This document shows positions 30,375-61,348 of a DNA stretch of 64,000 nucleotides, in pieces. The DNA comes from Ancylomarina salipaludis (lineage in GTDB: Bacteria; Bacteroidota; Bacteroidia; Bacteroidales; Marinifilaceae), in the NCBI RefSeq assembly GCF_004122035.1, contig NZ_SAXA01000002.1, forward strand, positions 124,001 through 188,000, written 5' to 3'. Every line of letters begins with the position of its first letter. Within the stretch, counting starts at the first letter, position 1. The notes beneath the pieces are model-generated. The model had not been told where the DNA came from. It saw only the letters and a list, made by a program, of their open reading frames with translations, and made no database searches. A program made the position numbers and the translations under genes.

Positions 30375-30442
30375 TCTAACTTAGAAATACACCATCACGA
30401 TTATATTTAAAGATGTAATATTCATAGAAAATCATTTTACTT

Positions 30443-31783: not shown

Positions 31784-31797
31784 TAAATCACGAAATA

Positions 31798-43333: not shown

Positions 43334-43336
43334 ACT

Positions 43337-44947: not shown

Positions 44948-45554
44948 TCACACTCAGATTGATGAACATCGTGATGACGAAGGTGCCAAAACAGGGATGT
45001 GGATTTTTATTTTCACGGAGCTCTTACTTTTTGGCGGCCTATTCATTGTCTATTCGGTATATCGATATTTAAATCCAATGGCCTTTCATATGGCTGCTGA
45101 AGAATTGGATATTTTCATTGGGACAGCCAATACGGTTATTCTATTAGTGAGCAGTATGACGATTGCTATGGCCATCACGTCTATTCAATTGAAAAGGAAA
45201 CGACTCACTTTAATCTTGATGGGGATAACAGTTTTGCTGGCTCTACTTTTTTTGGTGAACAAATATTTTGAATGGACAGGTAAGATTTCTCATGGTATTT
45301 TCCCGGGAAGTGAGATTCTGCATCAAAGTAGCCAGGGGGAAATTTTATTTTTTGGTTTGTATTATGCCATGACGGGTTTACACGCTCTGCACATTATTGT
45401 TGGCGTCACTTTTATTGGCTATGTGATGTGGTTAGTGAAAACGGATGATGTGAAATACGATGACTATGTGATTTTGGAAAACAGTGCTTTGTATTGGCAT
45501 CTTGTCGATTTAATTTGGATTTTCTTGTTTCCATTATTTTACCTTATCACTTAA
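44934..45554 (+). CDS. ctaE: cytochrome c oxidase subunit III
   Basis: The 206-residue protein has five helices and the subunit III features TGMWIFIFTELLLFGG, MTGLHALHIIVG and YWHLVDLIWIFLFPLFYL. The start is ATG at 44934 or, equally possible, 44940; both overlap the end of ctaD, indicating translational coupling. Confidence 0.94.
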   Translation: MIMNDHTQIDEHRDDEGAKTGMWIFIFTELLLFGGLFIVYSVYRYLNPMAFHMAAEELDIFIGTANTVILLVSSMTIAMAITSIQLKRKRLTLILMGITVLLALLFLVNKYFEWTGKISHGIFPGSEILHQSSQGEILFFGLYYAMTGLHALHIIVGVTFIGYVMWLVKTDDVKYDDYVILENSALYWHLVDLIWIFLFPLFYLIT

Positions 45555-45565
45555 AAACAGACACT

Positions 45566-45853
45566 ATGGAGAATGGACAACATGCTCATATCGTAAAATA
45601 CAAAACTTTTGTCGTTGTTTTGATTGTGTTACTGGTGTTCACATTCAGTTCAGTGGGAATTACACAAATCGATTTAGGGGTTTATTCAGTAACCGCGGCT
45701 TTAATTTTTGCAGTTTTAAAATCGATCTTGGTATTGATGTATTTTATGCATTTAAAGTTTGATAAGAAAGTCTATGCACTGATGACGGCTGGAATTATTT
45801 TATTGTTGATGATTGTCATCTTAGTAACGTTTTTAGATTATTTATACCGATAG
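45566..45853 (+). CDS. ctaF: cytochrome c oxidase subunit IV (CtaF/CyoD-like)
   Basis: The protein from the ATG at 45566 has 95 residues, three helices and the subunit IV pattern (KYKTFVVVLIVLLVFTF, then ALIFAVLKSILVLMYFMHL). An upstream open frame continues into ctaE and is not part of it. It lies 11 bases after ctaE. Confidence 0.9.
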   Translation: MENGQHAHIVKYKTFVVVLIVLLVFTFSSVGITQIDLGVYSVTAALIFAVLKSILVLMYFMHLKFDKKVYALMTAGIILLLMIVILVTFLDYLYR

Positions 45854-45856
45854 CTT

Positions 45857-46798
45857 ATGTTTTCAAAAGGAGTGGCTGATGCATCCAATTTTGTAAAAGG
45901 AGTAGATACTTCATTTATGATCATATTTGGAATAATCTCTTTTTTCCTGATAGGGATTACAGCGACAATGATCTATTTTGTTTTTCGATATAGAAAATCG
46001 AAGCATCCTAAAGCAGAACAAATTCATGGAAATGTTGTACTCGAAATTGTATGGACATTGATTCCAACGGCTTTGGTCATGGTCATGTTTTATTTTGGCT
46101 GGATGGGCTATAAACCCATGAAAGAAGTTCCGGATGATGCATTCGTAATTAAGAGTATTGCCCGTATGTGGCATTGGCAGTTTCAGTATGAGAATGGAAA
46201 AGTAACCGATACCTTGTATGTTCCTAAAGACCGAGATGTAAAATTGGATTTGGTTGCCTTGGATGTGATTCACAGTTTGTATATTCCGGCTTTTCGGTTG
46301 AAACAAGATATAGTACCAGGTAAAGATCAGTTTATGTGGTTTAAAGCAGGACGAGAAGGCGATTTTGATTTGTTTTGTACTGAGTATTGCGGTCTTTCAC
46401 ATTCTTCAATGGCTACATCTGTTGTTGTGATGGATTCTGATAAGTTTGATAAATGGTATGTAGATACAACAGTTGTGGCCTCTATAATAACTGATAAACC
46501 CGGAGCCCTTGGCTTGAGAATTGTACAAATGAATGGCTGTTTGGCCTGTCACTCTTTAGACGGGTCTAAAATAGTTGGCCCGACTTGGAAAGGATTATTC
46601 GGCTCAGAAGAAACCGTATTGACCAATGGGGTTGAAAGGAAAGTTGTGGTTGATAGTGCTTATGTGATGAACTCAATATATAATCCGAACGATGATGTTG
46701 TAAAGGGTTTTAAAAAAGGGTTGATGCTATCATATAAAAATGAATTAAAAGAAGAGGATATCAAAGAAATTATTGAATTTATGAAGACCCTGAAATAA
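45857..46798 (+). CDS. ctaC: caa3 oxidase subunit II with fused cytochrome c
   Basis: The 313-residue protein has two helices (about 20-42, 62-83), a CuA domain with His139, Cys174, Cys178, His182 and Met185 (FCTEYCGLSHSSM), and a C-terminal cytochrome c with CLACH at 228-232 and a Met in KGLMLSY. The fused heme makes this a caa3 oxidase. It is the last gene of the operon, three bases after ctaF, and the subunit order I-III-IV-II is unusual (II often comes first). Confidence 0.95.
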   Translation: MFSKGVADASNFVKGVDTSFMIIFGIISFFLIGITATMIYFVFRYRKSKHPKAEQIHGNVVLEIVWTLIPTALVMVMFYFGWMGYKPMKEVPDDAFVIKSIARMWHWQFQYENGKVTDTLYVPKDRDVKLDLVALDVIHSLYIPAFRLKQDIVPGKDQFMWFKAGREGDFDLFCTEYCGLSHSSMATSVVVMDSDKFDKWYVDTTVVASIITDKPGALGLRIVQMNGCLACHSLDGSKIVGPTWKGLFGSEETVLTNGVERKVVVDSAYVMNSIYNPNDDVVKGFKKGLMLSYKNELKEEDIKEIIEFMKTLK

Positions 46799-46854: not shown

Positions 46855-46899
46855 AAAAAAACTCATAAGACGTTTATTCGTTTTATGAGTTTTTTTTTG
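46855..46899. terminator. bidirectional terminator between ctaC and nosY
   Basis: A stem of about 13 bp (46855-46867 with 46883-46896) with A-run before and T-run after lies between the converging caa3 and act-nos operons. Confidence 0.8.
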
Positions 46900-46913: not shown

Positions 46914-47708
46914 TTAGAAATCTTTTTTCTTGATGTATCTGAGTAAAATGTAGATGGGGAATAATAACCAAACTGATAAGGCTGCAATAGAAAGCAAAAT
47001 ACCTTGCCAAACTCCAAAGAAATTATAAAAAACAGCTCCAGTGTATCCCATTAATGCTGATGTGTCTAAAAATAACATGATTAGAACTCTTCCTAAGTCA
47101 ATAGGGTTCATAAGGGTAAGTGTGATGGCTAAATTCTCTGTTGGGTAGGATTCAAACCAGATTAGAATAAGTAATAAAATACCATCGTAAATAATCGACA
47201 TGAACAGCCAGATGAAAAGAGAAAGCCCAAAGCCCTTAATTCGATTTTCGAAACGGAGTGCCACCATAAAGCTAAGTAAAGAGAAGATAAAGTTGAGGAT
47301 GAGCCCAACGCCTATTAAAACTAAGAAATTGGATAATTCGGGGCTTGTAATAATCCCACGGATAATAAAGGGTAAGCCTACCCCAAGGATGAAACTTAAG
47401 GATAATGAAACGGCTAAGCCAAAATATTGCCCCAGGAATATTGACTTCCTTTTAATGGGCTGGGAGAGAAGTAGCTCTGTGAATTCACGGGAATTGTACA
47501 TGTAAATAGCACCAAAAACTGTAGCCACTAAGGGGATTAATAAGAGAATCACATTCATCATACTAATAATTGATTTTGTGATATCTCCATTCATATAAAT
47601 AATGGAAGAGCTTACCATTAGATAAAAAGCAAGGTAAGCAATACTCCAATTGGATCGAATGAGGTCGAAGAGGCTATATTTAAATATTTTAAGCATGGCT
47701 ATTTTCAA
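46914..47708 (-). CDS. nosY: NosY-type ABC permease
   Basis: The 264-residue protein has six helices and the pattern of the ABC-2 permease family (YMNSREFTELLLSQPIKRKSIFLG near residue 70). It lies after nosF with a 20-base overlap, at the end of the act-nos operon. With NosF and NosD it supports assembly of the copper sites of N2O reductase. Confidence 0.92.
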   Translation of the reverse strand: MKIAMLKIFKYSLFDLIRSNWSIAYLAFYLMVSSSIIYMNGDITKSIISMMNVILLLIPLVATVFGAIYMYNSREFTELLLSQPIKRKSIFLGQYFGLAVSLSLSFILGVGLPFIIRGIITSPELSNFLVLIGVGLILNFIFSLLSFMVALRFENRIKGFGLSLFIWLFMSIIYDGILLLILIWFESYPTENLAITLTLMNPIDLGRVLIMLFLDTSALMGYTGAVFYNFFGVWQGILLSIAALSVWLLFPIYILLRYIKKKDF

Positions 47709-48396
47709 TTAGATTTGTAATCGCGGACTCTAGCTTTGTAGATCCATTTTGATTAATCAAGTCTTGGACTGATCCTTGAAAGTAGATATCTCCCTCAAGC
47801 AAGAAGATTATTTCATCAGAAATTTCCTGAACCAAACTCATAATGTGTGTGGTGAAAATGATCAATTTCCCTTTAGCTTTTTCTCTTTCTAAAAGTTCTT
47901 TAAATCGACTAATGGCTACCGGGTCGAGTCCTACTGTTGGTTCATCCAGAATTATAACGGGTGAATCGAACATAAATGCTAAAACCATATTAACCTTTTG
48001 TCTTGTTCCTCCTGAGAGATTACGTAGAGGCTTTTTAAGCTCGTTCTCCAAGCCAAAATATTGAATTAGTTCATTATCCCTGGCTTCTTGTTGGCGAATG
48101 TCTTTAACCAGTGCAATAAGCTCTAAAACTTTCAAATTCTCTGGGAAGCGTGCTATTTGAGGCAGATAGGATATTTGTTTTCGATATTCCCACTCACCAA
48201 CTATCGATTGATCATTGAATTTCACATCTCCTTCCTGAGCTATTACTAATCCCAGAATAGATTTGATAAGTGTAGTTTTTCCCGATCCATTAGGACCTAA
48301 AATGGCAATTATCTTATTCGAATCGAGTTTAATATTGACATCCTTTAAAACTTGATTTTTATGATAGGCTTTACTTAAATTCTCAATTCTTATCAT
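47689..48396 (-). CDS. nosF: NosF-type ABC ATPase
   Basis: The 235-residue ATPase has Walker A GPNGSGKTT (34-42), the signature LSGGTRQK, Walker B VIILDEPTVGLDP and the switch His in FTTHI. Context between nosD and nosY, with overlaps on both sides (14 and 20 bases), identifies it as NosF, which powers NosD-linked maturation of N2O reductase. Confidence 0.93.
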   Translation of the reverse strand: MIRIENLSKAYHKNQVLKDVNIKLDSNKIIAILGPNGSGKTTLIKSILGLVIAQEGDVKFNDQSIVGEWEYRKQISYLPQIARFPENLKVLELIALVKDIRQQEARDNELIQYFGLENELKKPLRNLSGGTRQKVNMVLAFMFDSPVIILDEPTVGLDPVAISRFKELLEREKAKGKLIIFTTHIMSLVQEISDEIIFLLEGDIYFQGSVQDLINQNGSTKLESAITNLIENSHA

Positions 48397-49627
48397 AGTC
48401 TATAATTTTCATTGATGGGCGATGGTCCTTTAAATTATCAGGTGTTAGGACGGGATTTACTTTTTCAGCAAAATCAATAATGTCAATTAATAAACTTCTC
48501 ATTAGAATACTTGTAGATGGAATTCTGCTAATAATTCGGGAAAATAGTTTAACAGGGCGATAAGGTATATCAGCCGTTCCATCTTTATTTAAATCGTAAC
48601 CTGTATGTGAGCTCCAGTAATTCCCATCGAAATTGTTACTCTCTGACTTGCCACTAACTCCGAGTTCAAAGCTATTATTGAGAAAATTGTTTTGATTAAT
48701 TTTATTGTACATACTACTGCCATATATTTTCATTGCCCAACCATTACTGTTGAATTCATTCTTATGAATATCGACTCGATTGGCTCCTTCCATATAAATG
48801 GCAATTGTATTTTGTTTGAAAATATTATTCGTGATTTCACTATCAGTAATATCTTTCAGAAGTAACCCATATGAAGCACTGCCCCAGTTGAACTCAAAAT
48901 GATTGTTTTGCATTTTAATATACTTTGAGAACATCACAGCAACACCAGCACCATTTGAACGAAATGTGTTTCCACGGTATTCGTCGTGATCTGAGAACAT
49001 GAAATGCAATCCATAGCGAATGTTATCGGCAACGATATTATTTTTCACAATGCTATTATCAACAAATTCGAGATAAATCCCGTCACGATGATTTCTGGCT
49101 TGATTTTTCTCTACCAGAATATTTTTACAATACCAGAGGTGAACTGCATTACCTGAGGACATCTCGTTTTTAGCATTTCCCTTAATATAGTTGTTGCGAA
49201 TAATACAATCTTTTGAATGCTTTAAGAATATCCCGAAGAAGGTGTTTTCCAAACGATTGTTTTCAAAGACACAATGCTTCTGTCTATTAACTTTTATGGC
49301 TGCATAATCATTAATATAACTGACTTTAATATTCTGTAGGTGTAAACCGATGATGCTAACGCTATCAGATTCTACCGTAATAATTTCCTGTTGCTTATTG
49401 TTTTCTATTGTAGGGTAATTAATTCCAATAAGGCTTATTGGATGTTGGATTAAAAGATTGGGTTCAATGTATATGCCTTTTTCTACAAAAATGGTATCTC
49501 CGGACTGGCTCATTTTTAAAGCCATTTCGATAGAATGAAAAACCTGGTTTTTACCCACACGAAGTTCTGAGCCTATCGTACTATAGGCAATAAAAAGACT
49601 GAATAGAATCAATAATAATCTTTGCAA
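48383..49627 (-). CDS. nosD: NosD periplasmic copper-maturation protein
   Basis: The 414-residue protein has a signal peptide (residues 2-18), then a right-handed parallel beta-helix with many NosD-type repeats (such as NNYIKGN, NNIVADN, NNHFEFN). C-terminal YWSSHTGYDLNKDGTADIPY is typical of NosD. NosD is a periplasmic partner of NosFY in building the CuZ site. Confidence 0.95.
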   Translation of the reverse strand: MQRLLLILFSLFIAYSTIGSELRVGKNQVFHSIEMALKMSQSGDTIFVEKGIYIEPNLLIQHPISLIGINYPTIENNKQQEIITVESDSVSIIGLHLQNIKVSYINDYAAIKVNRQKHCVFENNRLENTFFGIFLKHSKDCIIRNNYIKGNAKNEMSSGNAVHLWYCKNILVEKNQARNHRDGIYLEFVDNSIVKNNIVADNIRYGLHFMFSDHDEYRGNTFRSNGAGVAVMFSKYIKMQNNHFEFNWGSASYGLLLKDITDSEITNNIFKQNTIAIYMEGANRVDIHKNEFNSNGWAMKIYGSSMYNKINQNNFLNNSFELGVSGKSESNNFDGNYWSSHTGYDLNKDGTADIPYRPVKLFSRIISRIPSTSILMRSLLIDIIDFAEKVNPVLTPDNLKDHRPSMKIIDYDKN

Positions 49628-49633
49628 TGCAGT

Positions 49634-50089
49634 TTATTTTAATGAGCTATATTCTTTGAGTAAGTTATCCCAGTTCATCACTTTTCCTCCAAACTTTTCT
49701 TTAGCAGCCATTGCAGCTTCTTCACTTTCAAAGGCTGTTAAAAACATCCCCATAGGGCTTGGAAGTTTTAGTGAGTGCAGGTAATATGAATCCTTAACGG
49801 ATCTTAATGCTTCAGGTTGATTAAACGAGGTGACCAAAGAGAGTGCAATTTCGTTTTCGTCAATATTATCTGTTTGGAGATAATCTATCAAACACTCAAT
49901 TGAATCGAACGTATAAACTTTTCCTTTTTTTGATACTAACTCGGAGCCATATTGTTTTTCTACAATCATCATTCTACAATGCTGGCATTGGTCTTGCCCA
50001 TATGCTATAGCTTTTTCTTTAGGCTGACACGAAGTTAGAGCTAGAATGAATATTAAGATGAGGCTGTAATGACCTATTTTTTTTTCCAT
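49634..50089 (-). CDS. nosL: NosL copper chaperone lipoprotein
   Basis: The 151-residue lipoprotein (ALTSC, Cys21) has the NosL motif CQHCRMMIVEKQYG (near 36) and a downstream Met-rich MGMFLTAF region. NosL delivers Cu+ to apo-NosZ. It overlaps the upstream membrane-protein gene by 16 bases and is 6 bases before nosD. Confidence 0.94.
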   Translation of the reverse strand: MEKKIGHYSLILIFILALTSCQPKEKAIAYGQDQCQHCRMMIVEKQYGSELVSKKGKVYTFDSIECLIDYLQTDNIDENEIALSLVTSFNQPEALRSVKDSYYLHSLKLPSPMGMFLTAFESEEAAMAAKEKFGGKVMNWDNLLKEYSSLK

Positions 50090-50667
50090 AATAATGTAAA
50101 GGATAAAAAGTTGAAAACCATGGCAAATCCTAAGAATAAGGAGCCTGTATGTGGTAATGAAATAGCATTAAAATTTAATAGCATTTTTGATCCCAATAAA
50201 GGAGGTTGATAAACCATTCCAGGGATTTTGATAGGGGCATTAGGACTCAGGTTGTGTCCATAATCGTATTCCCATAAATAAAAATCGTAAATGCCCAGTA
50301 TACCCAACACTAAGAGTATAATTCCCCAAGTGATAAATAGCTTTCTCTTCTTTGAAAATGCAACGACAATGCCCAATAAAGACATGATGATGACGACAAA
50401 AGGGAAATATTTGAGCTCAGGAATTGAATCTGGTTTAATGTACTGCATCCCAATATAATGATTGAGAATATTTATATTTTGCAATGTACTTGGTGTGTCT
50501 CCTGTAATTTTGTTAATCCAGATATACATGTTTACCCCATTGGGATATTGGGCAGCTTCGAGTCTTATTTTCCAAAGAGGAAAAAGAAACAAGCCCATAA
50601 GCATTAAGGATGCTAAAAGCATAAACAATCTGGATCTATTTTCTTTTACGAGCAAATTAGATATCAT
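50074..50667 (-). CDS. membrane protein of clade II nos clusters, function unknown
   Basis: The 197-residue protein has four predicted helices (about 13-32, 86-104, 109-128, 174-193) and a large loop between the first two (about 33-85, with WINKITGDTPSTLQNINILNHYIGM). A second, Pro-rich loop sits before the last helix. It lies directly downstream of nosZ, where clade II clusters usually have a membrane protein called NosB; identity with NosB cannot be proven here. It overlaps nosL. Confidence 0.8.
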   Translation of the reverse strand: MISNLLVKENRSRLFMLLASLMLMGLFLFPLWKIRLEAAQYPNGVNMYIWINKITGDTPSTLQNINILNHYIGMQYIKPDSIPELKYFPFVVIIMSLLGIVVAFSKKRKLFITWGIILLVLGILGIYDFYLWEYDYGHNLSPNAPIKIPGMVYQPPLLGSKMLLNFNAISLPHTGSLFLGFAMVFNFLSFTLLWKKK

Positions 50668-50690
50668 CTTGTAGATTTAATTAAGATTTA

Positions 50691-50725
50691 TTTCCGGAAA
50701 GAATAATAGCTTATCCTTTCCGGAA
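50691..50725 (-). other. intercistronic hairpin after nosZ
   Basis: A perfect 10-bp stem (50692-50701 with 50716-50725) lies 8 bases after the nosZ stop on the minus strand. The run after it is only moderately T-rich. It could stabilise nosZ mRNA or cause partial termination, giving more NosZ than maturation proteins. Confidence 0.5.
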
Positions 50726-50732
50726 TTGTATT

Positions 50733-52703
50733 TTACTCATCAAATTCTCCAACACTCCACTTTAACTCCACTTTAGAATTTTTAGGAGAAACGCGAATGT
50801 AACCTTGCATTTCCTGATGAAGAGCTGAACAGAAATCGGTGCAATAGAATGGATAGACTCCGGGATTTTGAGGTTCCCAAACCAATGTTTCCGTCTGACC
50901 TGGCATCACTAATATCTCTGAAGTTCTAGCTCCCATTACTGCAAAACCATGGGGTACATCCCAATCTTGTTCCAGATTAGTCAGGTGGAAATAAACTTTA
51001 TCTCCGACTTTAACTCCCTCTATATTATCAGGAGCAAAGTGTGAACGAATAGAACTCATATAGACGCGAACCACATTACCTTTACGTACGACTTTCGCTT
51101 CATCTTCAGAAGTAATTTTATGAGGATGCTTATTCTCGTCAAGTTTGTAATATTTCACGGAATTTTTCATGATAATATCTGCTGGAATAGCCTGAGCATA
51201 GTGAGGCTCACCAATTGTAGGGAAATCCAGTAAGAGCTTCATTTTATCGCCAGTAATATCGAATAACTGTGCTGACTGTGTTAATTCAGGACCAGTAGGG
51301 AGAAAACGATCTTTCGTAATCTTATTTAATGAAACCAAGTATTTTCCGAAAGGTGCTTTTGAATCCCCACCAGGAATCATTAAGTGTCCAACTGAGTAAT
51401 AACTTGGAACGCGATCGAGTACTTCCCAAGTACCAATTTTCCATTTTATAACCTCTGAAGAGATAAAGAAAGTGGTATAGGCATTTCCTTTGCCATCGAA
51501 TTCGGTATGAAGTGGTCCTAAACCTGTACTTTTAACAGAACCTGCTACTACACTTTCAAAATTAATTACAGGAATCCCATCGACTTCATCATCAAAATCA
51601 TCATTCTCTATGGCTTTTAACATTTTTGAGAATGAATGAACGGTAAGATCCGATGACAGTTTACCATTACCTACAATATATTCACCGCTAGGATCAACAT
51701 CAACACCATGTGGTGATTTTGGAGTCGGTAAATAATAGATTAAACCAGGACATTCTTGCGGAATAAGAACTTTAACTTCCTTAAGCATTTCAGATTTTGC
51801 CATATGGCTATGCTCATCGTAAGTGTTGTGTGCATAGTTAGCAGGCATTGTTTTAGCTTTTCCTGCTGCAATATATTCTTCGGCCTTTTTCCAGTTAACA
51901 GCAGCAATATAATCTTTGTCACGTTGTGATGCTCCAATTTCGAGTAATGTATTACTCTCTTCGGTATTGTACGTGGTGAAGAAGGTCCATCCATGAGATT
52001 TTCCTTTACCAGAATGTGCTAAATCATAATCGTAACCAGGAACCAAGATCTGGAAAGCAACACTCATCTCTCCATCATCAGCAATTTTAATATAAGATAA
52101 AGAACCTTTGAAATTTTCTTTATATGATTTTATACTCACATCCTTCTGTGGAATAGGTACACTAAATCGAGTTCCAGCGACTAAATATTCCGAGTTTTCC
52201 GTAATAAAAGGAGAACTGTGATTCCCACCACTATTAGGGATTTCAAGAATTTCTGCAGTTTCAAAAGTCGTTAAATCTATACGTGCAACTCGTGGTGTAT
52301 TATTACCATTAATGAATAACCAACGACCATCAGGCACGCCATTAGTTTGAGATAATTCAGGATGATGAGAATCATCCCAAGGAATAAAACCCAAAGAGGT
52401 ATTCAACATCGGTTTGGTTTCTTCATTAAAACCATAGGCTTTTTCAGCGTCTACTGAAAAAACAGGAATCACCTTGAATAATCGCCCTGAAGGCAAACCA
52501 TACACACTTACCTGGCCACTAAATCCACCTGACATAAAGGCGTAAAACTCATCGTATTCTCCAGGCGATACATATACTTGGGAGGCCACATCCTGATCTC
52601 CAAATGCTCCTTTCGATTGTTGTTTTGAGTTATCACCACAGGCAGAAACGATAAAACCCATGATAAATAGATACGCTAACCACTTAAATTTTGACTTTTC
52701 CAT
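50733..52703 (-). CDS. nosZ: nitrous-oxide reductase, clade II, Sec-type lipoprotein signal
   Basis: The 656-residue enzyme reduces N2O to N2 outside the inner membrane. A seven-bladed beta-propeller (residues about 50-500) carries CuZ ligand regions (DEHSHMAKSE, PKSPHGVDVDP, and GLGPLHTEFDG). The C-terminal cupredoxin domain carries CuA ligands Cys621, Cys625, His629 and Met632 (CTDFCSALHQEM). The signal is of lipoprotein type (FIVSAC, Cys22), not twin-arginine, so this is the clade II (atypical) form. The gene is 31 bases after the fused actE gene. Confidence 0.97.
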   Translation of the reverse strand: MEKSKFKWLAYLFIMGFIVSACGDNSKQQSKGAFGDQDVASQVYVSPGEYDEFYAFMSGGFSGQVSVYGLPSGRLFKVIPVFSVDAEKAYGFNEETKPMLNTSLGFIPWDDSHHPELSQTNGVPDGRWLFINGNNTPRVARIDLTTFETAEILEIPNSGGNHSSPFITENSEYLVAGTRFSVPIPQKDVSIKSYKENFKGSLSYIKIADDGEMSVAFQILVPGYDYDLAHSGKGKSHGWTFFTTYNTEESNTLLEIGASQRDKDYIAAVNWKKAEEYIAAGKAKTMPANYAHNTYDEHSHMAKSEMLKEVKVLIPQECPGLIYYLPTPKSPHGVDVDPSGEYIVGNGKLSSDLTVHSFSKMLKAIENDDFDDEVDGIPVINFESVVAGSVKSTGLGPLHTEFDGKGNAYTTFFISSEVIKWKIGTWEVLDRVPSYYSVGHLMIPGGDSKAPFGKYLVSLNKITKDRFLPTGPELTQSAQLFDITGDKMKLLLDFPTIGEPHYAQAIPADIIMKNSVKYYKLDENKHPHKITSEDEAKVVRKGNVVRVYMSSIRSHFAPDNIEGVKVGDKVYFHLTNLEQDWDVPHGFAVMGARTSEILVMPGQTETLVWEPQNPGVYPFYCTDFCSALHQEMQGYIRVSPKNSKVELKWSVGEFDE

Positions 52704-52734
52704 TTCAATTAATTTATAGGTTATTAAATTGGGA

Positions 52735-53712
52735 TTATTTTAATGTTCTGAAATATTCAAGAACTTTTCTGGCTTCTTCTTCACTTAAATTTTGGTCGGC
52801 CATTGGGGATATATATCGCCCCAATAATTCCTTGGCAATTGGATCTTTAGCAACCATTTCCTTAGGATTAAGAATCATATTCATAACCCATTCCGGCGTT
52901 CGTCTTTCAAGAATACCTATAGGAGCGGGACCAATGTATCGTTTTGTAGGCTTGTGACAACTCGAACACATTTGCTTATAAATCTTTTGTCCTTCTTCAG
53001 CCATCTTGTTATTAATAGTTTCTAAGCTTAAGCTTTTAACAGGGCCAACTCCTTTTTGATTTGGATATAGCTTTGACAATCGAGCTTCAAAGTCAGCTAT
53101 GCTTTCTTTAGGACTGTCGTCAATAACTGATATGGTACGTTCTCCTAGTTTTTTTCCTTGAAGTTTAACTTTGATATATTCAATAATCTTCCAACGGTCT
53201 TCAGGAGTTATTTGTGATCCATGAGCACCCATAATACCATAGCCAAGTGTAATTACATGGAAGAATTCTCCTCTTGGCGCATTCATCATTTTATCTGATA
53301 TCAGGCTGGCAGGTTGGTAAGTAAAACGGTCACTTGTAAATAAATAGCCCATACCATTCCCTTTTAGTCCATGACAGTTGTAGCAGAAGACTTTATAAAG
53401 CTCTTTACCTTCTTTGACGTCTTTCAATTTCATCTTTTGGGGATTGAAAAATATTTGGCCTGCGAGTGCTCTGTCTTCTAATGTTTTTTCAAAATCAAAG
53501 GGTATAATCCCTCTTGGAATTGTTCCATTAACAGGTAGACGTGCTGATGTACTATCCGCGAAATTTGGGTTTTCTGAGTAGCTTTCATAGGCACGAGATT
53601 TTACCATATCCGGGAAATAGGAATGACCAGGATGATTTCTATCCCTATCACAAGCTGAGAGAAAGATTATAGTTAAAAATAATAGACTTATAAATGAAGT
53701 AAGTTTAAGCAT
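52735..53712 (-). CDS. actE: ActE-type cytochrome c fused to a second cytochrome c domain
   Basis: The 325-residue lipoprotein (LSAC, Cys21) starts as a typical ActE (HPGHSYFPDMVKSRAYE) with heme motif CYNCH at 110-114. It continues into a second cytochrome c domain (about 235-325) with CSSCH at 249-253. ActE in studied ACIII has one heme. The gene follows actF rather than preceding it and leads directly into nosZ. I infer the extra domain carries electrons from ACIII to NosZ. Confidence 0.9.
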   Translation of the reverse strand: MLKLTSFISLLFLTIIFLSACDRDRNHPGHSYFPDMVKSRAYESYSENPNFADSTSARLPVNGTIPRGIIPFDFEKTLEDRALAGQIFFNPQKMKLKDVKEGKELYKVFCYNCHGLKGNGMGYLFTSDRFTYQPASLISDKMMNAPRGEFFHVITLGYGIMGAHGSQITPEDRWKIIEYIKVKLQGKKLGERTISVIDDSPKESIADFEARLSKLYPNQKGVGPVKSLSLETINNKMAEEGQKIYKQMCSSCHKPTKRYIGPAPIGILERRTPEWVMNMILNPKEMVAKDPIAKELLGRYISPMADQNLSEEEARKVLEYFRTLK

Positions 53713-53735
53713 AATATGGACTTTTTATAAGACGT

Positions 53736-54899
53736 TTATGTTTCGTAATGGAAGCTTTCTTCAAGGAAAGGATCATTTTTGCATAATAATGGTTTTTTCG
53801 AAAGAGCATTTAATACTACAAATAGGAAGCCTCCAAGGTATAAGCAGGCCGAACCTATTTCAATTAGACCTATTTTAGCTGTCTCACCCATTATACCCGG
53901 GCTTAACATGAGGTAAATGTTTAGCCATTGACCGATTAGAACAACAGCAGCAACCATAGCTAACCATTTGATATTTCGTTTTGAATTCCTGGTCATCAAA
54001 GCCAGGAATGGAAAGAGAAAGTTTAAAATGAGTATGGTAAAAAAGAGAATCGGAAATCCGTGTAATCTTTGTGCAAAATAGATTGTCTCTTCAGGAATAT
54101 GGCTGTACCAAATCAGCATGTACTGGAAAAACCAGAGGTACATCCAAAAGATGCTAAAGCCAAAAAGATATTTACCCAAATCATGAAGGTGTTCTTTATT
54201 AACAAAATTGAGATAGCCTTGAGCCTTGAGTAAGGCTATAATCAGAATAAAAGCAGCTACGCCTGATACAAAAAGCCCAATAAAGACAAACCATCCAAAC
54301 AGAGTACTAAACCAGTGCGGATCCACAGACATAATCCAATCCCAACTCATTGTTGAACTCGTTACGGCAAAGAATGCCATAAATAAGGCAGCTAAAATCC
54401 GACCTTGTTTGTGGAATTTATAGTCATTTGATAAATCTTGCGAAGCTGAGTTTTTACGCAGTAAATAGCTGAGTCCTATCCATCCTGTGAAATAAACAGC
54501 CATGCGGATAAAGAAAAATGGCAGATTCAGGTAGGCTGATTTTCCTTCTATGATTGGATCATGTAGATCATGATGTGACCAGTGATACAAATCGTGCATG
54601 CCAAAAATTAGCAAGAACATAAGTGCCGCTGAATAGGGCAGGAAAGTGCTTAGAGCTTCAGGTATTCGCTTTAGACTTACATGCCACCCAGAATGTGCAA
54701 TTTTATGGAGAGCGATAAATAAGACTCCAAAAAGAGAAAGAAACAGGAAGTATAGGTTGTTAAGTAAAACATTCATCCAAACTTGTTTGCTTTCTGGATT
54801 CTCAAAAAGAAAACTAAGCGCAATCAGGAGAATACCAATAACAGATATGGATAAAAATACTTGTTTTGTTTTTTTTGATAAGATATAATTCGTGTCCAT
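53736..54899 (-). CDS. actF: alternative complex III membrane subunit ActF
   Basis: The 387-residue protein has about 10 helices and the ACIII ActF-type features (LHKIAHSGWHVSLKRIPEA near residue 65, SWDWIMSVDPHWFSTLFGWFVF near 185, HIPEETIYFAQR near 270). It is the second quinol-family membrane subunit of ACIII, a relative of ActC. It follows actD after 21 bases. Confidence 0.92.
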   Translation of the reverse strand: MDTNYILSKKTKQVFLSISVIGILLIALSFLFENPESKQVWMNVLLNNLYFLFLSLFGVLFIALHKIAHSGWHVSLKRIPEALSTFLPYSAALMFLLIFGMHDLYHWSHHDLHDPIIEGKSAYLNLPFFFIRMAVYFTGWIGLSYLLRKNSASQDLSNDYKFHKQGRILAALFMAFFAVTSSTMSWDWIMSVDPHWFSTLFGWFVFIGLFVSGVAAFILIIALLKAQGYLNFVNKEHLHDLGKYLFGFSIFWMYLWFFQYMLIWYSHIPEETIYFAQRLHGFPILFFTILILNFLFPFLALMTRNSKRNIKWLAMVAAVVLIGQWLNIYLMLSPGIMGETAKIGLIEIGSACLYLGGFLFVVLNALSKKPLLCKNDPFLEESFHYET

Positions 54900-54920
54900 C
54901 AGCTTATGATTTTGAATTAA

Positions 54921-55439
54921 CTATTTATGCTCTTTGAGTTGAATTTCATGAGCCTCTTCTTGCTCTAAGATGGCCTTTACATTATTAAAATACTCATCAT
55001 TTTCATTTGCCTCAATGATGATGACGAAACGATCATCAGTTATTCTTTCATCGTGAATTTTATTCTTGGCACCCAAACCTAATTTTGATCTGAAAAGAAA
55101 AGCAAATACCATCGCAAAGGCAGCAAATAGCACAGTAACTTCAAAGGTGATGGGTATAAAAGCAGGAATAGAAAAATGTGGTTTACCTCCAATAAATAGG
55201 GGGTAGTCAACCACAAAAGCCCAGGTTTGAAAACCGAAAGCAAAAAGTGTTCCTATAGCTCCTGCAATAAAACCAACGGTTGGTAGTTTGGATTCTTTTA
55301 AACCCAAAACTTTATCTATACCATGTACTGGAAAAGGTGTTAAAACATCAAGTATCAATATTTTCTTTTCCATCAATATTTTGATTGCCCTCAAAAGATC
55401 TTCTTCATCTGTGAAATAGGCTGAAATATAGCTTCTCAT
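54921..55439 (-). CDS. actD: alternative complex III subunit ActD (DUF3341)
   Basis: The 172-residue protein has a cytoplasmic N-terminal domain, then two helices (about 57-78, 97-118) and the DUF3341 sequence features (YFTDEEDLLRAI, TPFPVHGID, PKL-like ESKLPTVGF). Its ATG overlaps the stop of actC (4 bases). Confidence 0.93.
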   Translation of the reverse strand: MRSYISAYFTDEEDLLRAIKILMEKKILILDVLTPFPVHGIDKVLGLKESKLPTVGFIAGAIGTLFAFGFQTWAFVVDYPLFIGGKPHFSIPAFIPITFEVTVLFAAFAMVFAFLFRSKLGLGAKNKIHDERITDDRFVIIIEANENDEYFNNVKAILEQEEAHEIQLKEHK

Positions 55440-56806
55440 AGCGTTTCGTTTTTAGTTTCTTTTTCACCTGAGCTTTTCACAACAGTTTTAATCTCTGCAA
55501 TGGCAATCACAGGAAATACCCGAATGAATAATAGAAAACATGAGAAAAATAAACCGAGTGTACCTATGAAGATTCCAACTTCAACAATTGTTGGCGAATA
55601 CATCGACCAACTTGACGGTAGGTAGTCGCGATGTAATGATGTAACGATGATAACGAAACGCTCGAACCACATACCAATGTTGATAAAGATTGACAGTATA
55701 AAGGTAAAAACGAGATTTCGTCTCAGTTTTCTGAACCAGAGGAGTTGTGGTGAAATCACATTACAAGTCATCATGATGGCGTAAGCCCACCAATATGGTC
55801 CTGTAGCTCGATTAAGAAAGGCGTATTGCTCATATTCCACACCAGAGTACCATGAGATAAAGAGTTCGGTCATATATGCAATTCCCACGATTGATCCTGT
55901 GGCAATGATAATTTTATTCATTGACTCAATATGTGCAAGTGTGATGTAGTTTTCCAAATTGAGAACCTTACGTGTTACAACCAAAAGAGTCAGTACCATG
56001 GCAAAACCGGAAAAGATGGCACCAGCTACAAAGTAAGGGGGAAATATGGTGGTGTGCCAGCCCGGAATAATCGAGGTGGCAAAGTCAGCACTTACAATAC
56101 TATGAACTGAAAGAACGAGAGGTGCGGCGATACCGGCCAGTATGAGACTTAGTTTTTCGTGTCGTTGCCAGTGTTTTACCGATCCTGTCCATCCAAAGCT
56201 GAGTAAACCATAAACGTATTTTTTTATTTTTGAACTCACCCTGTCGCGCATGGTTCCGATATCAGGAATCAGTCCCATATACCAGAATAAGAGTGAGACC
56301 AATAAATAGGTTGATATAGCAAAAACATCCCATAAAAGGGGAGAGTTAAAGTTGACCCACAAGCCGCGTGTGTTGGGATAAGGGAATACAAAAAATGCCA
56401 ATAGAGGACGTCCCATATGAATTAATGGAAAGAGACCTGCACACAAGATGGCAAATATGGTCATGGCTTCAGCTGAACGGTTAATACTTGTTCTCCATTT
56501 TTGACGGAAGAGTAAAAGAATAGCAGATATAAAAGTTCCGGCATGTCCGATCCCGACCCACCAAACAAAATTGGTGATTCCCCAACCCCAACCAATGGTT
56601 CGATTGAGTCCCCAGGATCCTATACCTTCCCATACAGTATAACCCATCATGGCAAGCCCAAAAAACATGGCTGATAAACTTATGGTTAGACCCATATACC
56701 AAGCTTTTCCAGGTTTGCCCTCAATAGGAGCAGCAATATCCTGGGTGATTTGGCTATAAGTTTTGTTTCCCTTTATTAGAGGTTCTCGAATTGGAGATAC
56801 GTACAT
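55436..56806 (-). CDS. actC: alternative complex III quinol-binding subunit ActC (NrfD family)
   Basis: The 456-residue protein has 10 helices and the NrfD/ActC pattern (TNFVWWVGIGHAGTFISAILLL, NFNSPLLWDV, FPPYFVAGAIFSG). It oxidises menaquinol at the inner membrane and passes electrons to ActB. It follows actB after 19 bases. Confidence 0.95.
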   Translation of the reverse strand: MYVSPIREPLIKGNKTYSQITQDIAAPIEGKPGKAWYMGLTISLSAMFFGLAMMGYTVWEGIGSWGLNRTIGWGWGITNFVWWVGIGHAGTFISAILLLFRQKWRTSINRSAEAMTIFAILCAGLFPLIHMGRPLLAFFVFPYPNTRGLWVNFNSPLLWDVFAISTYLLVSLLFWYMGLIPDIGTMRDRVSSKIKKYVYGLLSFGWTGSVKHWQRHEKLSLILAGIAAPLVLSVHSIVSADFATSIIPGWHTTIFPPYFVAGAIFSGFAMVLTLLVVTRKVLNLENYITLAHIESMNKIIIATGSIVGIAYMTELFISWYSGVEYEQYAFLNRATGPYWWAYAIMMTCNVISPQLLWFRKLRRNLVFTFILSIFINIGMWFERFVIIVTSLHRDYLPSSWSMYSPTIVEVGIFIGTLGLFFSCFLLFIRVFPVIAIAEIKTVVKSSGEKETKNETL

Positions 56807-56825
56807 AACTCAGTATTATAGTGGT

Positions 56826-59774
56826 TTAACTCTTTTTATTTCTGATTTTCGTTAGATAACTAACTGAAGGAAGCGTATGAATTTCTTCCAATAGATGGTA
56901 GTTCCTATCGCTGGAAGCAAGTTTAAATAAGTCACTCCCCTTGTCGTTTAAGTCACCGAAAAGAATGGCTCCGGAAGGGCAGGTTTGTTGGCAAGCCGTT
57001 TTGATATCACCATCTTTAACTTTTCGTCCTTCAAGCTTCGCATTAAGTTTGCCTTCCTGAATTCTCTGAACACACATCGAGCACTTTTCAATCACACCTT
57101 TGGCCCTGATTGTAACATCAGGATTAAGGACCATTCGACTTAAATCTAAAGTCATGCCAGTTGGATCATGAAGGTTATTTGGAATTGAATCAGCTTGGGT
57201 ATAATCAAACCAATTAAAACGTCTGACTTTATAGGGACAATTGTTTCCGCAGTAACGTGTTCCAATACATCTGTTGTAAATCATTTGATTCAATCCTTCA
57301 CTGCTATGATTTGTAGCAGCTACAGGGCAAACATTTTCACATGGTGCGTTATCACAATGCTGACACATAACAGGTTGAAAGACAACTCCAGGCTCGTTTT
57401 CATCACCCGAGAAATAACGGTCAATCCGGATCCATGACATTTCGTGAGCGCGAATAACTTCTTTCTTTCCTACAATTGGGACATTGTTTTCAGCCTGACA
57501 AGCAATTGTGCAAGCACCACATCCAACACAAGCATTTAAGTCAATAGCTAATCCCCAATGATGATTCGGGAATTCGGGTTCTTTATAAATCCCTGCATTC
57601 TTATACTCGTGTTTATGATCGTTTCCTGCTTTTGGGTTTTTCTGATATTCATCCAGATTGGCTTCACGAACGATTGCTCGACCTTCCATAGAATGGTGAG
57701 TTTGAGTCATCGCAAAATCGAAATGTCCTTCAATTTTTTCAAGTGTGACAGACGAATGTTGATTCGTATTTAGATGACTAGCTTTAAAGCCAACATCTTT
57801 ACCAACCTTACCACAAATAGTTCTTCCATACCCCATCGCGATAGAGACTGTGTTATAAGCTTGACCAGGCAGAATATAGACTGGTAATTCAAGATCACCA
57901 TTGAGTTTAATCATATTTCCGGTTTCAAGACCAAGTTCTTTGGCTTGCTTAGGTGAAATATTGAGGTAATTATCCCAGCAAATTTTACTTATAGGATCTG
58001 GCATTTCTTGCAACCATGGATTATTAGCCATACTGCCATCCCCAATGGTTACCTTTTCGTATATCTGGAGTTCAATCCTATTCGTTTTCTTTTTTTGAGT
58101 AATGGCCTCAAGGATTTTAATGATATCAAGCTCAGCAAACTTTAGTTTGTTACCTGATACAGTCTTCGTTTGAAAGATGCCTTCTTGTAAGGTATGCTCC
58201 CAATAGGATTTAAAATTTGTGTAAAGGGTTTGACTTGGGAAAAGTGTTTCTTCCCAATGTTTCATGATAAATTTATGATAATCGACATCTTGACCTGACC
58301 ATTTTAAAAGAGATGCCTGAAACTGGCGGGTATCGAATAGTGGATGGATAGCAGGTTGCATTAAACTGTACGAATCCTTTTTGATCTCTGCATCATTCCA
58401 ACTTTCCAGATAATGATTATCAGGAGCTATGTATTTCATCAACGATGAAGTTTCGTTTGGCGTCTCATGAATTGATAAACTGAATGAAAGAGATTCAATC
58501 GCTTTCTTAATTTTTTCTCCTTTAGGATGAGAATACACAGGATTTGTATGATAGCATATTAGACCTTTTACTTGTCCAGATGCTAAATTGTCTATAAGTT
58601 GATCCATATCTTCATCAATGGCTTGATGATTTAAAAGAGGATTTTCCAGATTAATACTAGAATTGAAATTCTCTAATTCATAATTGATGGCATTAATCAG
58701 AATCTGTGCATTCAACTCCTGGCTTCCTGAAACAACTACGGAGTGTGATTTTTGTTCAAGTAAATCTTTTGCCAGCTCTTTAATTATTTTTGTTGCCTCT
58801 GGAACATCATGTTTTTGTTGCCCTTTTAATATCACAATCTCATTATAAAGCTGAGCAATCAGAAGGTTTAATTCCGAAGGTTTTATCGCGTGCCTTTCAT
58901 CAGCATTGCTACCCGTTAAACTCATTCTCGATTCGAATTGAATATGTCGAGACATTTTATTTAGAGAACCCGAAAGTTTGCGGGTATCCGTATATGTTTT
59001 GATATACTCACTAGGATTGAGCCATGTTCCTAAGAAATCAGCATCGAAACTAACAATCAAATTTGCTTTATTGAATCGATAATCAGGTAATCCATCTTTG
59101 CCAAAACACAATTTTTGAGCTTGTAGGATTGCACTTGCCGATTGCGTATCGTATTGAATCCATTTAATGTTTGGATAAGCATCAGTAAAATACTTAATAG
59201 CTTTGCGGGTAGAAGGGCTGAAAATAGTCGGTGTTAATAAAGCGATTTTATTTTCCTTTTGAGAATCCAATGCTTTTAAGATTGAGTCATCAAACTTGTC
59301 CCATGAAACCTTCTCTTTTTCTATTTGAGGAGATTGATAACGGCTATTGTCGTATAAGCTCAATACAGAGGCTTGAACTCGAGCAGAGCAAGCTCCATTA
59401 CTGATTGGAGACAAGTTATTCCCTTCAATCTTAATAGGTCTTCCTTCTCTTGTTTTAATGAGAATACTGGCATAATCACTGGCATTCATATAAGTAGAAG
59501 CATAATAGTTGGCTATGCCTGGTGTTATTTCTTCTGGTTTATTCAGATATGGAATCGCTTTTTGAACGGTATTTTCACAGCTTGATAAAACGGTTGTAAT
59601 AGCTAAACTGTAACCACAAAGCTTTAAGAAATCTCGACGATTACTCTTTGCTTCTGCCGTACCATCTTCAAAAATATCGAGAACTTGCTCCAAATTACCT
59701 TTGGGGGTATGCTTTGTTATTTTAGCTTCAGAACTTTCGTTTTTTTCGTGCTGGCTTTTCCAGTATTTTTTCAT
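56826..59774 (-). CDS. actB: alternative complex III subunit ActB (molybdopterin-like domain fused to Fe-S domain)
   Basis: The 982-residue protein has a twin-arginine signal (NRRDFLKLCGYS, about 41-52), a large molybdopterin-oxidoreductase-like domain (about 75-720) without a recognisable Mo-ligand site, and a C-terminal four-cluster ferredoxin domain (about 755-960). Motif I is complete (CVGCGACTIAC). Motif III reads CIGTRYCGNNC, with Thr for the second Cys, as expected for the [3Fe-4S] cluster reported in ACIII. It links ActC to the ActA hemes. Confidence 0.95.
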   Translation of the reverse strand: MKKYWKSQHEKNESSEAKITKHTPKGNLEQVLDIFEDGTAEAKSNRRDFLKLCGYSLAITTVLSSCENTVQKAIPYLNKPEEITPGIANYYASTYMNASDYASILIKTREGRPIKIEGNNLSPISNGACSARVQASVLSLYDNSRYQSPQIEKEKVSWDKFDDSILKALDSQKENKIALLTPTIFSPSTRKAIKYFTDAYPNIKWIQYDTQSASAILQAQKLCFGKDGLPDYRFNKANLIVSFDADFLGTWLNPSEYIKTYTDTRKLSGSLNKMSRHIQFESRMSLTGSNADERHAIKPSELNLLIAQLYNEIVILKGQQKHDVPEATKIIKELAKDLLEQKSHSVVVSGSQELNAQILINAINYELENFNSSINLENPLLNHQAIDEDMDQLIDNLASGQVKGLICYHTNPVYSHPKGEKIKKAIESLSFSLSIHETPNETSSLMKYIAPDNHYLESWNDAEIKKDSYSLMQPAIHPLFDTRQFQASLLKWSGQDVDYHKFIMKHWEETLFPSQTLYTNFKSYWEHTLQEGIFQTKTVSGNKLKFAELDIIKILEAITQKKKTNRIELQIYEKVTIGDGSMANNPWLQEMPDPISKICWDNYLNISPKQAKELGLETGNMIKLNGDLELPVYILPGQAYNTVSIAMGYGRTICGKVGKDVGFKASHLNTNQHSSVTLEKIEGHFDFAMTQTHHSMEGRAIVREANLDEYQKNPKAGNDHKHEYKNAGIYKEPEFPNHHWGLAIDLNACVGCGACTIACQAENNVPIVGKKEVIRAHEMSWIRIDRYFSGDENEPGVVFQPVMCQHCDNAPCENVCPVAATNHSSEGLNQMIYNRCIGTRYCGNNCPYKVRRFNWFDYTQADSIPNNLHDPTGMTLDLSRMVLNPDVTIRAKGVIEKCSMCVQRIQEGKLNAKLEGRKVKDGDIKTACQQTCPSGAILFGDLNDKGSDLFKLASSDRNYHLLEEIHTLPSVSYLTKIRNKKS

Positions 59775-59823
59775 ATTGGGTATTTTTTCAGTTAGCTCCT
59801 CAGATTAGTAAGTAGTGCTTTGC

Positions 59824-60957
59824 TTAGTAATGACAACGGGCACATTCTCGTCCACCAATATCTTTAACTCGGACACTATCAATTTGTTCTTTTACAATTT
59901 TAAGATGGAGTTTTTTGAACGTGTTGGAGTAATAGTTGTTGGTGTTGAAATCAACAGCTGTTTTATCATGACAATCCAAACACCAACCCATTGATAAATC
60001 TTCAACCTGTTTAACGATGTGCATTTTTTCAACTTCCCCATGGCATTCCTGACACTCGCGCTTGCCAACATTCACATGTTGTGCATGGCTAAAGAAGACA
60101 TGGTCAGGAAGTTTATGAACACGAATCCATTCAATAGGTTTATTGTTCTCGATAGCAGCATGAATTTTATTGATTTCAAACTTGCCTGAGTTTCGACCTT
60201 CTCTAACTATGGAATGACAGTTGAGACAAACATTTGCAGAGGGGATAACCGCTGATTTACTATTGTCGACACCTGTATGGCAATATCTACAATCTATTTT
60301 ATTATCAGTAGCATGTACTTTGTGTGAAAATTTTATGGGTTGATCGGGAGCGTAATTTTCATTTCGCCCAAGAGCCATGGCATCCTCACTAAGCATTTTT
60401 ATTTGATAGCCTAATGCCAAAAAGAAAATTAGAATAGTGATGAACTTATATTTTATCTTTTTAGTGAAGAAAAGATCTATTAGTGCAAGTGTGATAAGTA
60501 AACCAAGAAATAGAAATAGGATGAGATTGTTGACAACTGGCTTTTGTTCTTGAGTACCATATTCCTTTAGTTTGACTAGGTAGTTTTTAATATGCTTAAG
60601 TTCTTCGTCATTGTATGCGTATCCAGCATGAACTTTAGACATGACTTTTGCAATAGGAGCATTTAGAATGGAGTTAAAGTCAGATATTTCTTTACTCGAA
60701 AAACTATGGGCAATATCCCATGCTGAAGGGTTCCAGTTAAGCGTATCCGAAAAACTGATATTATGGCAGCTAACACAAGCTTTTAGTTTAGTTTTTGTAA
60801 GAACTAAACCTTTAAATAGACGTTCTCCCCGCTTAGATGATTCGAGGAAATTGTGATCAGATTTATCGTGATTTTGTGTGTTTTGGTTCTCGGAGAAAGA
60901 TGGGGAAGTTGTCAGTAGAAAAAAGACAATAGAAAAGAATAGGCAAAGTTTACTCAT
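59824..60957 (-). CDS. actA: alternative complex III multiheme cytochrome ActA with extra N-terminal heme
   Basis: The 377-residue protein has a signal peptide (to about residue 22), a heme motif CVSCH at 61-65 in a small N-terminal domain, two membrane helices (about 144-188), then five further motifs (CRYCH, CLNCH, CQECH, CLDCH, CARCH) in the pentaheme ActA core. Six hemes rather than five. It is the first gene of the act-nos operon. Confidence 0.94.
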   Translation of the reverse strand: MSKLCLFFSIVFFLLTTSPSFSENQNTQNHDKSDHNFLESSKRGERLFKGLVLTKTKLKACVSCHNISFSDTLNWNPSAWDIAHSFSSKEISDFNSILNAPIAKVMSKVHAGYAYNDEELKHIKNYLVKLKEYGTQEQKPVVNNLILFLFLGLLITLALIDLFFTKKIKYKFITILIFFLALGYQIKMLSEDAMALGRNENYAPDQPIKFSHKVHATDNKIDCRYCHTGVDNSKSAVIPSANVCLNCHSIVREGRNSGKFEINKIHAAIENNKPIEWIRVHKLPDHVFFSHAQHVNVGKRECQECHGEVEKMHIVKQVEDLSMGWCLDCHDKTAVDFNTNNYYSNTFKKLHLKIVKEQIDSVRVKDIGGRECARCHY

Positions 60958-61285
60958 GGTAGAATGATTTACAAATGCTTTATATAAGTATGATGTCTAT
61001 ATTCTCAATAAGAAACCAGATTTTATTTAGAAAATCCGGAATAATTTAATCCTTAGATAATTGTACTCGTCATACAAGTTAAAAATTTTACTTAATTAAT
61101 CACAGTGCATCTTTCAATATTTTTTAATATAGAATATCAATATTGATGAGGAAGACAGTTGTTTGCTTTAAATATGGCTTAGAATAAGGAAAAGTCAGAG
61201 GTTTTTGCTTAATGAAATAGGGGGATAATCTTTCATAATTAGTTTGGATTATCTTTTTATGAGCTTATAATTTTGATAGGAGAGT
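60958..61285. other. upstream region of the act-nos operon
   Basis: About 330 bases with no gene. A 12-bp perfect palindrome, ATCAATATTGAT (61136-61147), lies about 180 bases before actA. It is not an FNR box, which has TTGAT first. No TAnnTTTG promoter was found on the minus strand. Confidence 0.4.
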
Positions 61286-61320
61286 AAAATAAAAAGCCCT
61301 CATTCGCTGGAATGAGGGCT
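61286..61320 (-). terminator. intrinsic terminator of pssA
   Basis: On the minus strand AGCCCTCATTC (61320-61310) pairs with GAATGAGGGCT (61304-61294) and is followed by a T-rich run. Confidence 0.85.
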
Positions 61321-61348
61321 TCGAAATATTTTTTTAGTATGGTTTTGT

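Follow-up and report, generated by a model that had tools for sequence, protein, structure and literature searches.

Clade II nitrous oxide (N2O) reducers of the Bacteroidota form an important biological N2O sink, and the electron supply to their N2O reductase (NosZ) is mostly inferred. Here we analyse a window of 64,000 nucleotides (the whole stretch of DNA under study, to which all coordinates refer) on contig NZ_SAXA01000002.1 of Ancylomarina salipaludis, whose minus strand carries at 46914-60957 twelve genes in the transcription order actA, actB, actC, actD, actF, actE, nosZ, nosB, nosL, nosD, nosF and nosY, i.e., an alternative complex III (ACIII) followed by a nos cluster, with a cytochrome c domain fused to ActE. 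The published ACIII structures of Flavobacterium johnsoniae (6BTM) and Rhodothermus marinus (6F0K) share with ours the six subunits ActA-F and the lipoprotein nature of ActE, and the six haem motifs of ActA found here agree with the six haems described for F. johnsoniae ActA (PMC8552683). Electrons were described to run from menaquinol at ActC over the [3Fe-4S] cluster of ActB and the haems of ActA to the haem of ActE (PMC8552683, PMC5928083). Deletion of actE in F. johnsoniae left aa3 activity intact and slowed growth, and the authors raised, as one possibility, that ActE serves an acceptor yet to be identified, with the paths splitting at ActA/ActE; the same paper names soluble cytochrome c and HiPIP as reaction partners of R. 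marinus ActE (PMC8552683). Moreover, it was argued that ACIII likely belongs to aerobic rather than anaerobic respiration (PMC3534657).

On the nos side, Mros1103-1108 of Melioribacter roseus encode a cytochrome c, nosZ, nosL, nosD, nosF and nosY, an order shared with our window from nosZ on, although nosB is unnamed in the available text and the cytochrome that precedes nosZ there is here part of actE (PMC3534657). ACIII-nos clustering is already published for Methylacidiphilum caldifontis IT6, in which nosCZBLDFYC lies inside an ACIII cluster with oxidase genes adjoining, as here; however, this organism belongs to another phylum and has two separate nosC genes, and the available part of the paper mentions no fusion (PMC11102522). 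Its nos genes are related to those of Hydrogenobacter, and during anoxic growth on N2O nosC1BZC2 were up 1.9-6.7-fold while the other nos genes were constitutive (PMC11102522). The CcoP of Neisseria gonorrhoeae offers a likeness of another kind, since its extra haem c domain diverts electrons to nitrite reductase, so that an added cytochrome c domain acts as outlet to a denitrification enzyme, but on the oxidase and not, as here, on the quinol-oxidising complex (PMC8552683). The ActE-cytochrome fusion was not found in print in searches of the PMC literature, which covers no preprints and few subscription papers. Wolinella succinogenes, finally, has quinol-oxidising complexes that differ from ACIII. 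Its NosG-C1-C2-H and Rieske/cytochrome bc systems likewise join a membrane quinol module and cytochromes c to clade II NosZ (title cited in PMC11102522), whereas neither a NosG nor a NosH gene is among our twelve.

Compared with 6BTM and 6F0K, ActE carries here an extra C-terminal cytochrome c, the act genes end in the order D-F-E, and nos instead of oxidase genes follow. Judged by its sequence, actE (52735..53712, minus strand; 325 amino acids, lipobox at residues 18-21, CxxCH at residues 110 and 249) is a fusion of ~185 N-terminal residues of ActE with ~110 C-terminal residues of a small cytochrome c, a character absent from the preliminary description of the locus and found on follow-up. 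With approximate borders, the ActE half (residues ~25-187; 53148..53712, minus strand) matches ActE of F. johnsoniae (6btm_E, E-value 8e-30) and of R. marinus, and the cytochrome half (residues ~215-325; 52735..53070, minus strand) matches R. marinus cytochrome c (3cp5, 2e-23). When the protein was split at residue 205 and each half searched against our loci L001-L185, the N-terminal half matched the ActE genes of act clusters, and the C-terminal half found a related small cytochrome c in the fetched flanks of 74/80 nosZ loci, with 40-69% identity (mostly 55-69%; 40-48% in a Saprospirales-type group). Among the six loci without a match, three end within ~0.2 kb upstream of nosZ and one belongs to G523, itself a fusion carrier; note that this count, like the 78/80 given below for nosB, includes loci cut by contig ends. 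By sequence kinship, the C-terminal half belongs with the NosZ-associated cytochromes c, of the R. marinus cytochrome c type. The 72 matches above 90 bits are separate open reading frames (ORFs) of 110-219 amino acids, and in the 20 free cytochromes that were aligned the domain is preceded by a lipoprotein-like N-terminus (one, L117, is extended at its end); the fused domain has neither signal nor lipobox, nor a gene of its own.

Indeed, the fused protein has two CxxCH motifs, compared with a single one in 38/39 ActE ORFs of other loci, the exception being the fusion of G523. Since the extra haem lies in the added domain and the ActE part keeps one motif, the complex is best regarded as a variant of ACIII. 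A second copy of the nos-type cytochrome was found neither in this genome nor in G523 at E 0.01, and no separate copy was found at 1e-35 (order search) in G1087, the third fusion carrier; at 1e-35 a separate cytochrome was seen in five nosZ-bearing, fusion-free genomes (G440, G442, G548, G558 and G661). In a Foldseek search with a predicted model of the fusion (324 residues, from the row 52735-53709 without the first Met), known ActE chains were matches 1-4 and R. marinus cytochrome c was the fifth (E 1.1e-3). The mean predicted local distance difference test of 75 and the predicted template modelling score of 0.49 led us to leave the relative placement of the domains uninterpreted; the structure list derived via the model spans almost only residues 64-192, and the fold of the cytochrome domain rests on Foldseek and sequence. 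Fused and single-domain proteins were aligned separately, since a joint alignment had matched the free cytochromes to the haem of ActE.

From these sequences, we consider it likely that the nos-linked ACIII, with a cytochrome tethered to ActE, feeds electrons to NosZ. Menaquinol would be oxidised at ActC, and electrons would pass over the [3Fe-4S] cluster of ActB, the haem wire of ActA and the ActE haem to the tethered second haem. This haem would dock at the CuA domain of NosZ, which is lipid-anchored, and N2O would be reduced to N2. ACIII has been proposed to pump protons (PMC5928083), so that N2O respiration would be energy-coupled at the ACIII step; we infer both this pumping and the passage of electrons from the tethered cytochrome to NosZ. 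Fusion and act-nos run together suggest an electron wire built into one machine. Found in nos-linked clusters of three genomes, the fusion provides a concrete candidate partner for ActE, whose role was left open by the published knockout that raised a further acceptor as one possibility (PMC8552683), and it makes the split-path model (ActA/ActE) testable. More tentatively, and with somewhat less than even confidence, we suggest that ActE might be a general ACIII outlet to N2O reductase in Bacteroidota, here hard-wired, and that ACIII, tethered cytochrome and lipid-anchored NosZ might assemble into a quinol:N2O supercomplex that pumps protons and would be, under anaerobic conditions, what the ACIII-aa3 supercomplex is to oxygen respiration.

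The two other fusions come from metagenome-assembled genomes (MAGs), G523 and G1087. Contig C104 of G1087 carries on one strand nosZ (cut at the 5' side), nosB, three ORFs, nosL, nosD, nosF, nosY, actA, actB, actC, actD, actF and actE::cytochrome (cut at the 3' side), and in G523 the same order is spread over two contigs, C288, which runs from nosZ into actB, and C274, which runs from within actB to the fusion, so that the two blocks stand in the opposite order to the window, with nos first. An assembly accident at the act-nos junction was rejected, since fusion and linkage recur in G1087 on one contig. Each MAG has in addition another act copy that is not fused, namely a complete cluster in G523 and actE plus actF on a 5.8-kb contig in G1087. 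The three ORFs between nosB and nosL, of which the largest is TonB-receptor-like by eye (L125:12688-16094, L229:1828-5226), possibly serve copper uptake for NosZ maturation. In phylogenetic trees, the three nos-linked complexes fall into a single clade by their ActB/C/D/F sequences (98/97). Within the nos cytochromes, the fused domain of this genome likewise groups with that of G523 (99/87), in a tree of few columns whose bootstrap had not settled. This cytochrome tree, reduced from 116 to 113 rows by removal of 3 identical ones, was built without matches below 70 bits and without loci that do not belong to the nosZ sets; the ActC tree excluded L214 (stop in the segment), and G1087 is absent from both.

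Several observations weigh against electron delivery from this ACIII to NosZ, or against the evidence drawn from the relatives. The NosZ partners of the fused ACIIIs do not make up a single clade: when they were constrained to group together, the best tree was rejected (p-AU 0.008, 29 rows), 0/200 bootstrap trees unite the three, and a larger quick NosZ tree (without L033, L032, L038 and L042, which are own or duplicate rows, and without matches below 300 bits) agrees. The tested group was defined by act linkage and not by the tree, though the quick tree had been seen beforehand. Inheritance of the whole operon as a single unit by the three genomes is rejected on the first two of these grounds. 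The trees thus suggest a single origin of the fused ACIII, which would have kept, or re-found, a nos cluster while nosZ changed. In addition, ActC alone gives a weak sister relation of this genome and G523 (94/32), and both MAGs are only partly complete (82% and 75%) and come from the same genus (family f70, not the family of the window genome). On the biochemical side, F. johnsoniae ACIII is reported to show poor reactivity towards soluble (mitochondrial) cytochrome c (PMC8552683). The genome of the window has a single ACIII, so the oxidases may share it. Members of the cytochrome family are also present in G029 and G162, which lack NosZ above the cut-off, and the presence of such a cytochrome alone thus does not prove NosZ as acceptor. 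Finally, the R. marinus cytochrome c homologue is a donor to caa3.

This last homologue is the closest solved relative of the fused domain, and together with the occurrence of the family away from nosZ and the adjoining caa3 operon it would fit a cytochrome that serves caa3 or any periplasmic acceptor, the nos linkage being incidental. We regard this as unlikely because a relative is present in most nosZ loci (the 74/80 above), because nos genes adjoin the fusion-bearing act cluster in all three genomes, with two block orders among them (the link in G523 crossing a contig gap), and because caa3 subunit II has its own CxxCH here (by eye). As to the two genomes without NosZ above the cut-off, the cytochrome c of G029 (L234:6921-9183) precedes a 480-amino-acid lipoprotein-like ORF with one haem motif, at a guess a haem-bearing copper nitrite reductase, and in G162 (L233:7038-10016) a 992-amino-acid ORF ends in the same cytochrome c domain (55% identity).

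The preliminary description had claimed that this ACIII is dedicated to N2O respiration and gives a complete quinol-to-N2O chain. A chain encoded in one gene run is supported, more strongly than before, by the nos-type cytochrome fused to ActE, by the recurrence of fusion and linkage in two MAGs and by the missing oxidase linkage of act clusters of this gene order (0/7); dedication does not follow here, as one ActD copy is present and cytochrome b gave no match in this genome, the same search being positive in 8/14 controls. With one ActD and no cytochrome b match, ACIII may also feed caa3 and cbb3. Sharing with caa3 through the ActA outlet is possible, and likely if the sole ACIII is the only route to caa3. 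At roughly even probability in our judgement, the complex is a hub that feeds caa3, through the N-terminal haem domain of ActA or directly, and NosZ through the fused ActE, the operon tying its expression to nos without dedicating it, an arrangement compatible with the tethered cytochrome as donor to NosZ. The sixth haem motif retained by ActA and the adjoining caa3 and cbb3 operons point the same way, but the missing oxidase linkage does not, nor does a second candidate quinol-cytochrome c route beside cbb3, the FeS-NrfD-cytochrome c operon at 29439-32712 (plus strand). This operon, which may be a further quinol:cytochrome c route as far as its genes tell, encodes an Fe-S protein with a Tat-like start, an NrfD-like membrane protein and a cytochrome c. 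Next come a P-type ATPase gene and the cbb3 operon, and this genome has a paralogue at G000:C2:32816-34036 (53% identity). The three nosZ-bearing genomes of the order that lack ActD (G410, G443 and G590) all carry the FeS-NrfD-cytochrome c operon (NrfD 57-59% identity), and the ActD-bearing G523 (52%) and G460 (49%) also have related NrfD genes.

A complex strictly dedicated to N2O, as initially proposed, remains a doubtful though conceivable reading for the window genome. It would agree with these alternative NrfD complexes and with G523 and G1087, which pair the fused nos-linked ACIII with a second unfused copy (in G1087, only actE and actF of it were seen) and in which dedication is plausible; yet the window genome has a sole ACIII, and gene order cannot reveal dedication.

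The rarity of the arrangement was assessed in overlapping samples, with 395 genomes at the level of the phylum, 395 at that of the class, and 295 and 393 at that of the order. In the class sample, 320/395 genomes match this ActE at 1e-20, and among the matches listed the sole open-frame join of both halves is that of this genome, with G719 (residues 9-249) and G779 (9-238) extending beyond the ActE part at 35-36% identity through stop codons. The 393 order genomes added the fusions of G523 (residues 9-324) and G1087 (10-280, where the contig ends). NosZ exceeds the cut-off in 127/395 genomes of the phylum sample, and these plus two fragmentary cases make up the 129 nosZ-bearing Bacteroidota genomes examined, all of which have ActD (80/80 and 49/49). 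NosZ and ActD genes share a contig in 35/129 and lie within 20 kb in this genome only (4.2 kb; next 21.2 kb), contig breaks possibly concealing some adjacency in the other 94; likewise, 15 nosZ starts lie less than 9 kb from the low contig end, and adjacency could be hidden in some. Act genes occur in 1/80 fetched nosZ loci, that of G523, with 9 kb visible on both sides in 40/80. The genome search for act genes adjoining nosZ that the preliminary description had suggested was thereby carried out: within 20 kb it returned this genome alone in the phylum sample, and G1087 and G523 are also linked. In the order, 18 other genomes have a NosZ-type match (17 above the cut-off), of which 15 have ActD and three (the ActD-less genomes named above) do not; three tested members of the window genome's own family have neither NosZ nor ActD.

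The order of the act genes bears on how the fusion came about. Among 42 ordered act clusters (a count that leaves out L159 and L163, without an actF match, and includes L184, without an ActE match above 60 bits), 34 read ABCDEF (one without actA) and seven ABCDFE (one without actA at a contig edge), the latter being the order of the window. Oxidase genes follow 23/34 ABCDEF clusters versus 0/7 ABCDFE clusters; only 4/7 of these show ~8 kb or more downstream, and some oxidase-free ABCDEF loci are also cut short. The high linkage in ABCDEF clusters agrees with the usual association of ACIII and oxidase genes, which the preliminary description had given for Rhodothermus and Flavobacterium. Since actE is last in the D-F-E order, a cytochrome gene between actE and nosZ could join it by a small deletion, and the fusion could have arisen by this route. 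The same ease of joining would allow a neutral fusion through loss of the stop codon, without functional gain, which is nevertheless unlikely, as the fusion, both haem motifs and the linkage are kept in two families and two block orders, between full-length proteins of 51% identity. Note that in other families of the phylum ActD and ActE apparently form one ORF (L176, L178; by eye), and many ActD matches lie in open frames of ~380-475 amino acids, as for ActD-ActE fusions.

As regards the other genes of the run (all on the minus strand), the full set ActA, B, C, D, E and F is encoded together. actA (59824..60957) has six CxxCH haem c motifs, at residue 61 and then five from residue 223 on (6btm_A, E 2e-49), actB (56826..59774) encodes the large Fe-S/molybdoenzyme-like subunit (6btm_B, E 8e-208), actC (55436..56806) an NrfD-like membrane subunit (PF03916), actD (54921..55439) is the sole copy found in the genome (PF11821, 187 bits), and actF (53736..54899) encodes the second NrfD-like membrane subunit (6btm_F, E 1e-89). 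nosZ (50733..52703) encodes a clade II, Sec-type N2O reductase with a lipobox, above the TIGR04246 cut-off (945 bits; cut-off 625); alignment with solved NosZ shows by eye Cys-x3-Cys-x3-His-x2-Met and seven histidines at what we take to be the CuA and CuZ ligand positions. It is accompanied by the five genes nosB, nosL, nosD, nosF and nosY, with nosF, nosY and nosB assigned partly by position or by homologues in related nosZ loci. The 197-amino-acid membrane protein at 50074..50667, presumably NosB, has no family match and a homologue in 78/80 related nosZ loci, followed by the copper chaperone gene nosL (49634..50089; PF05573), nosD (48383..49627; TIGR04247, 409 bits), nosF (47689..48396; ABC ATPase match and position) and nosY (46914..47708; ABC membrane subunit, PF12679 (ABC2 membrane) just below its cut-off, and position).

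Intergenic distances along the run are, in transcription order, 49, 19, -4, 21, 23, 31, 65, -16, 6, -14 and -20 bases. ORF coordinates and these distances bear out what was first described, i.e., twelve genes on one strand with gaps of at most about 65 bases and several overlaps, and the caa3 operon is indeed separate and converging (42551-46798, plus strand). Upstream, a terminator-like stem of 13 pairs (61293..61322, minus strand) ends the preceding gene and probably marks where the operon begins on its 5' side; nosY and the converging caa3 operon are separated by a terminator-like stem of 18 pairs (46855..46896), which was scored on the plus (caa3) strand only and may act on both strands because its arms are A7/T7. 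The scan found more stems within the run, the longest of 11 pairs in nosZ (52463-52438), and 13 terminator-like sites in total compared with 8.7 (standard deviation 3.2) in shuffles. Judging from spacing and terminator-like stems, the twelve genes may be co-transcribed. The FNR/CRP-like patterns tried upstream of actA gave zero matches, promoter-like sites were not enriched over shuffles (41 versus 53.1, standard deviation 7.6), the Rfam scan of the window returned one tRNA only, and a PF18793 profile search had no match in this genome nor in any control. The GC content is even across the window (0.34-0.39 in 4-kb steps), and a recent transfer is therefore without compositional sign.

A perfect palindrome, ATCAATATTGAT, stands at 61136-61147 in the gap upstream of actA and again at 33614-33625 inside the ATPase gene near cbb3; it differs from the FNR consensus and is expected 0.00 times in shuffles, for a pattern chosen after being seen. 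In addition, very divergent NosZ-type genes were met at L044-L056 (G439, G443, G460, G590, G641, G650 and G655). In G439, G590, G641 and G650 two of them stand side by side, one kind scoring ~420-510 bits against TIGR04246 and the other 655-697 bits, and TIGR04246 is the best NCBIfam match of L046 and L053 (L053 below the cut-off). Six genes of the 655-697-bit kind sit on a branch ~10 changes per site long.

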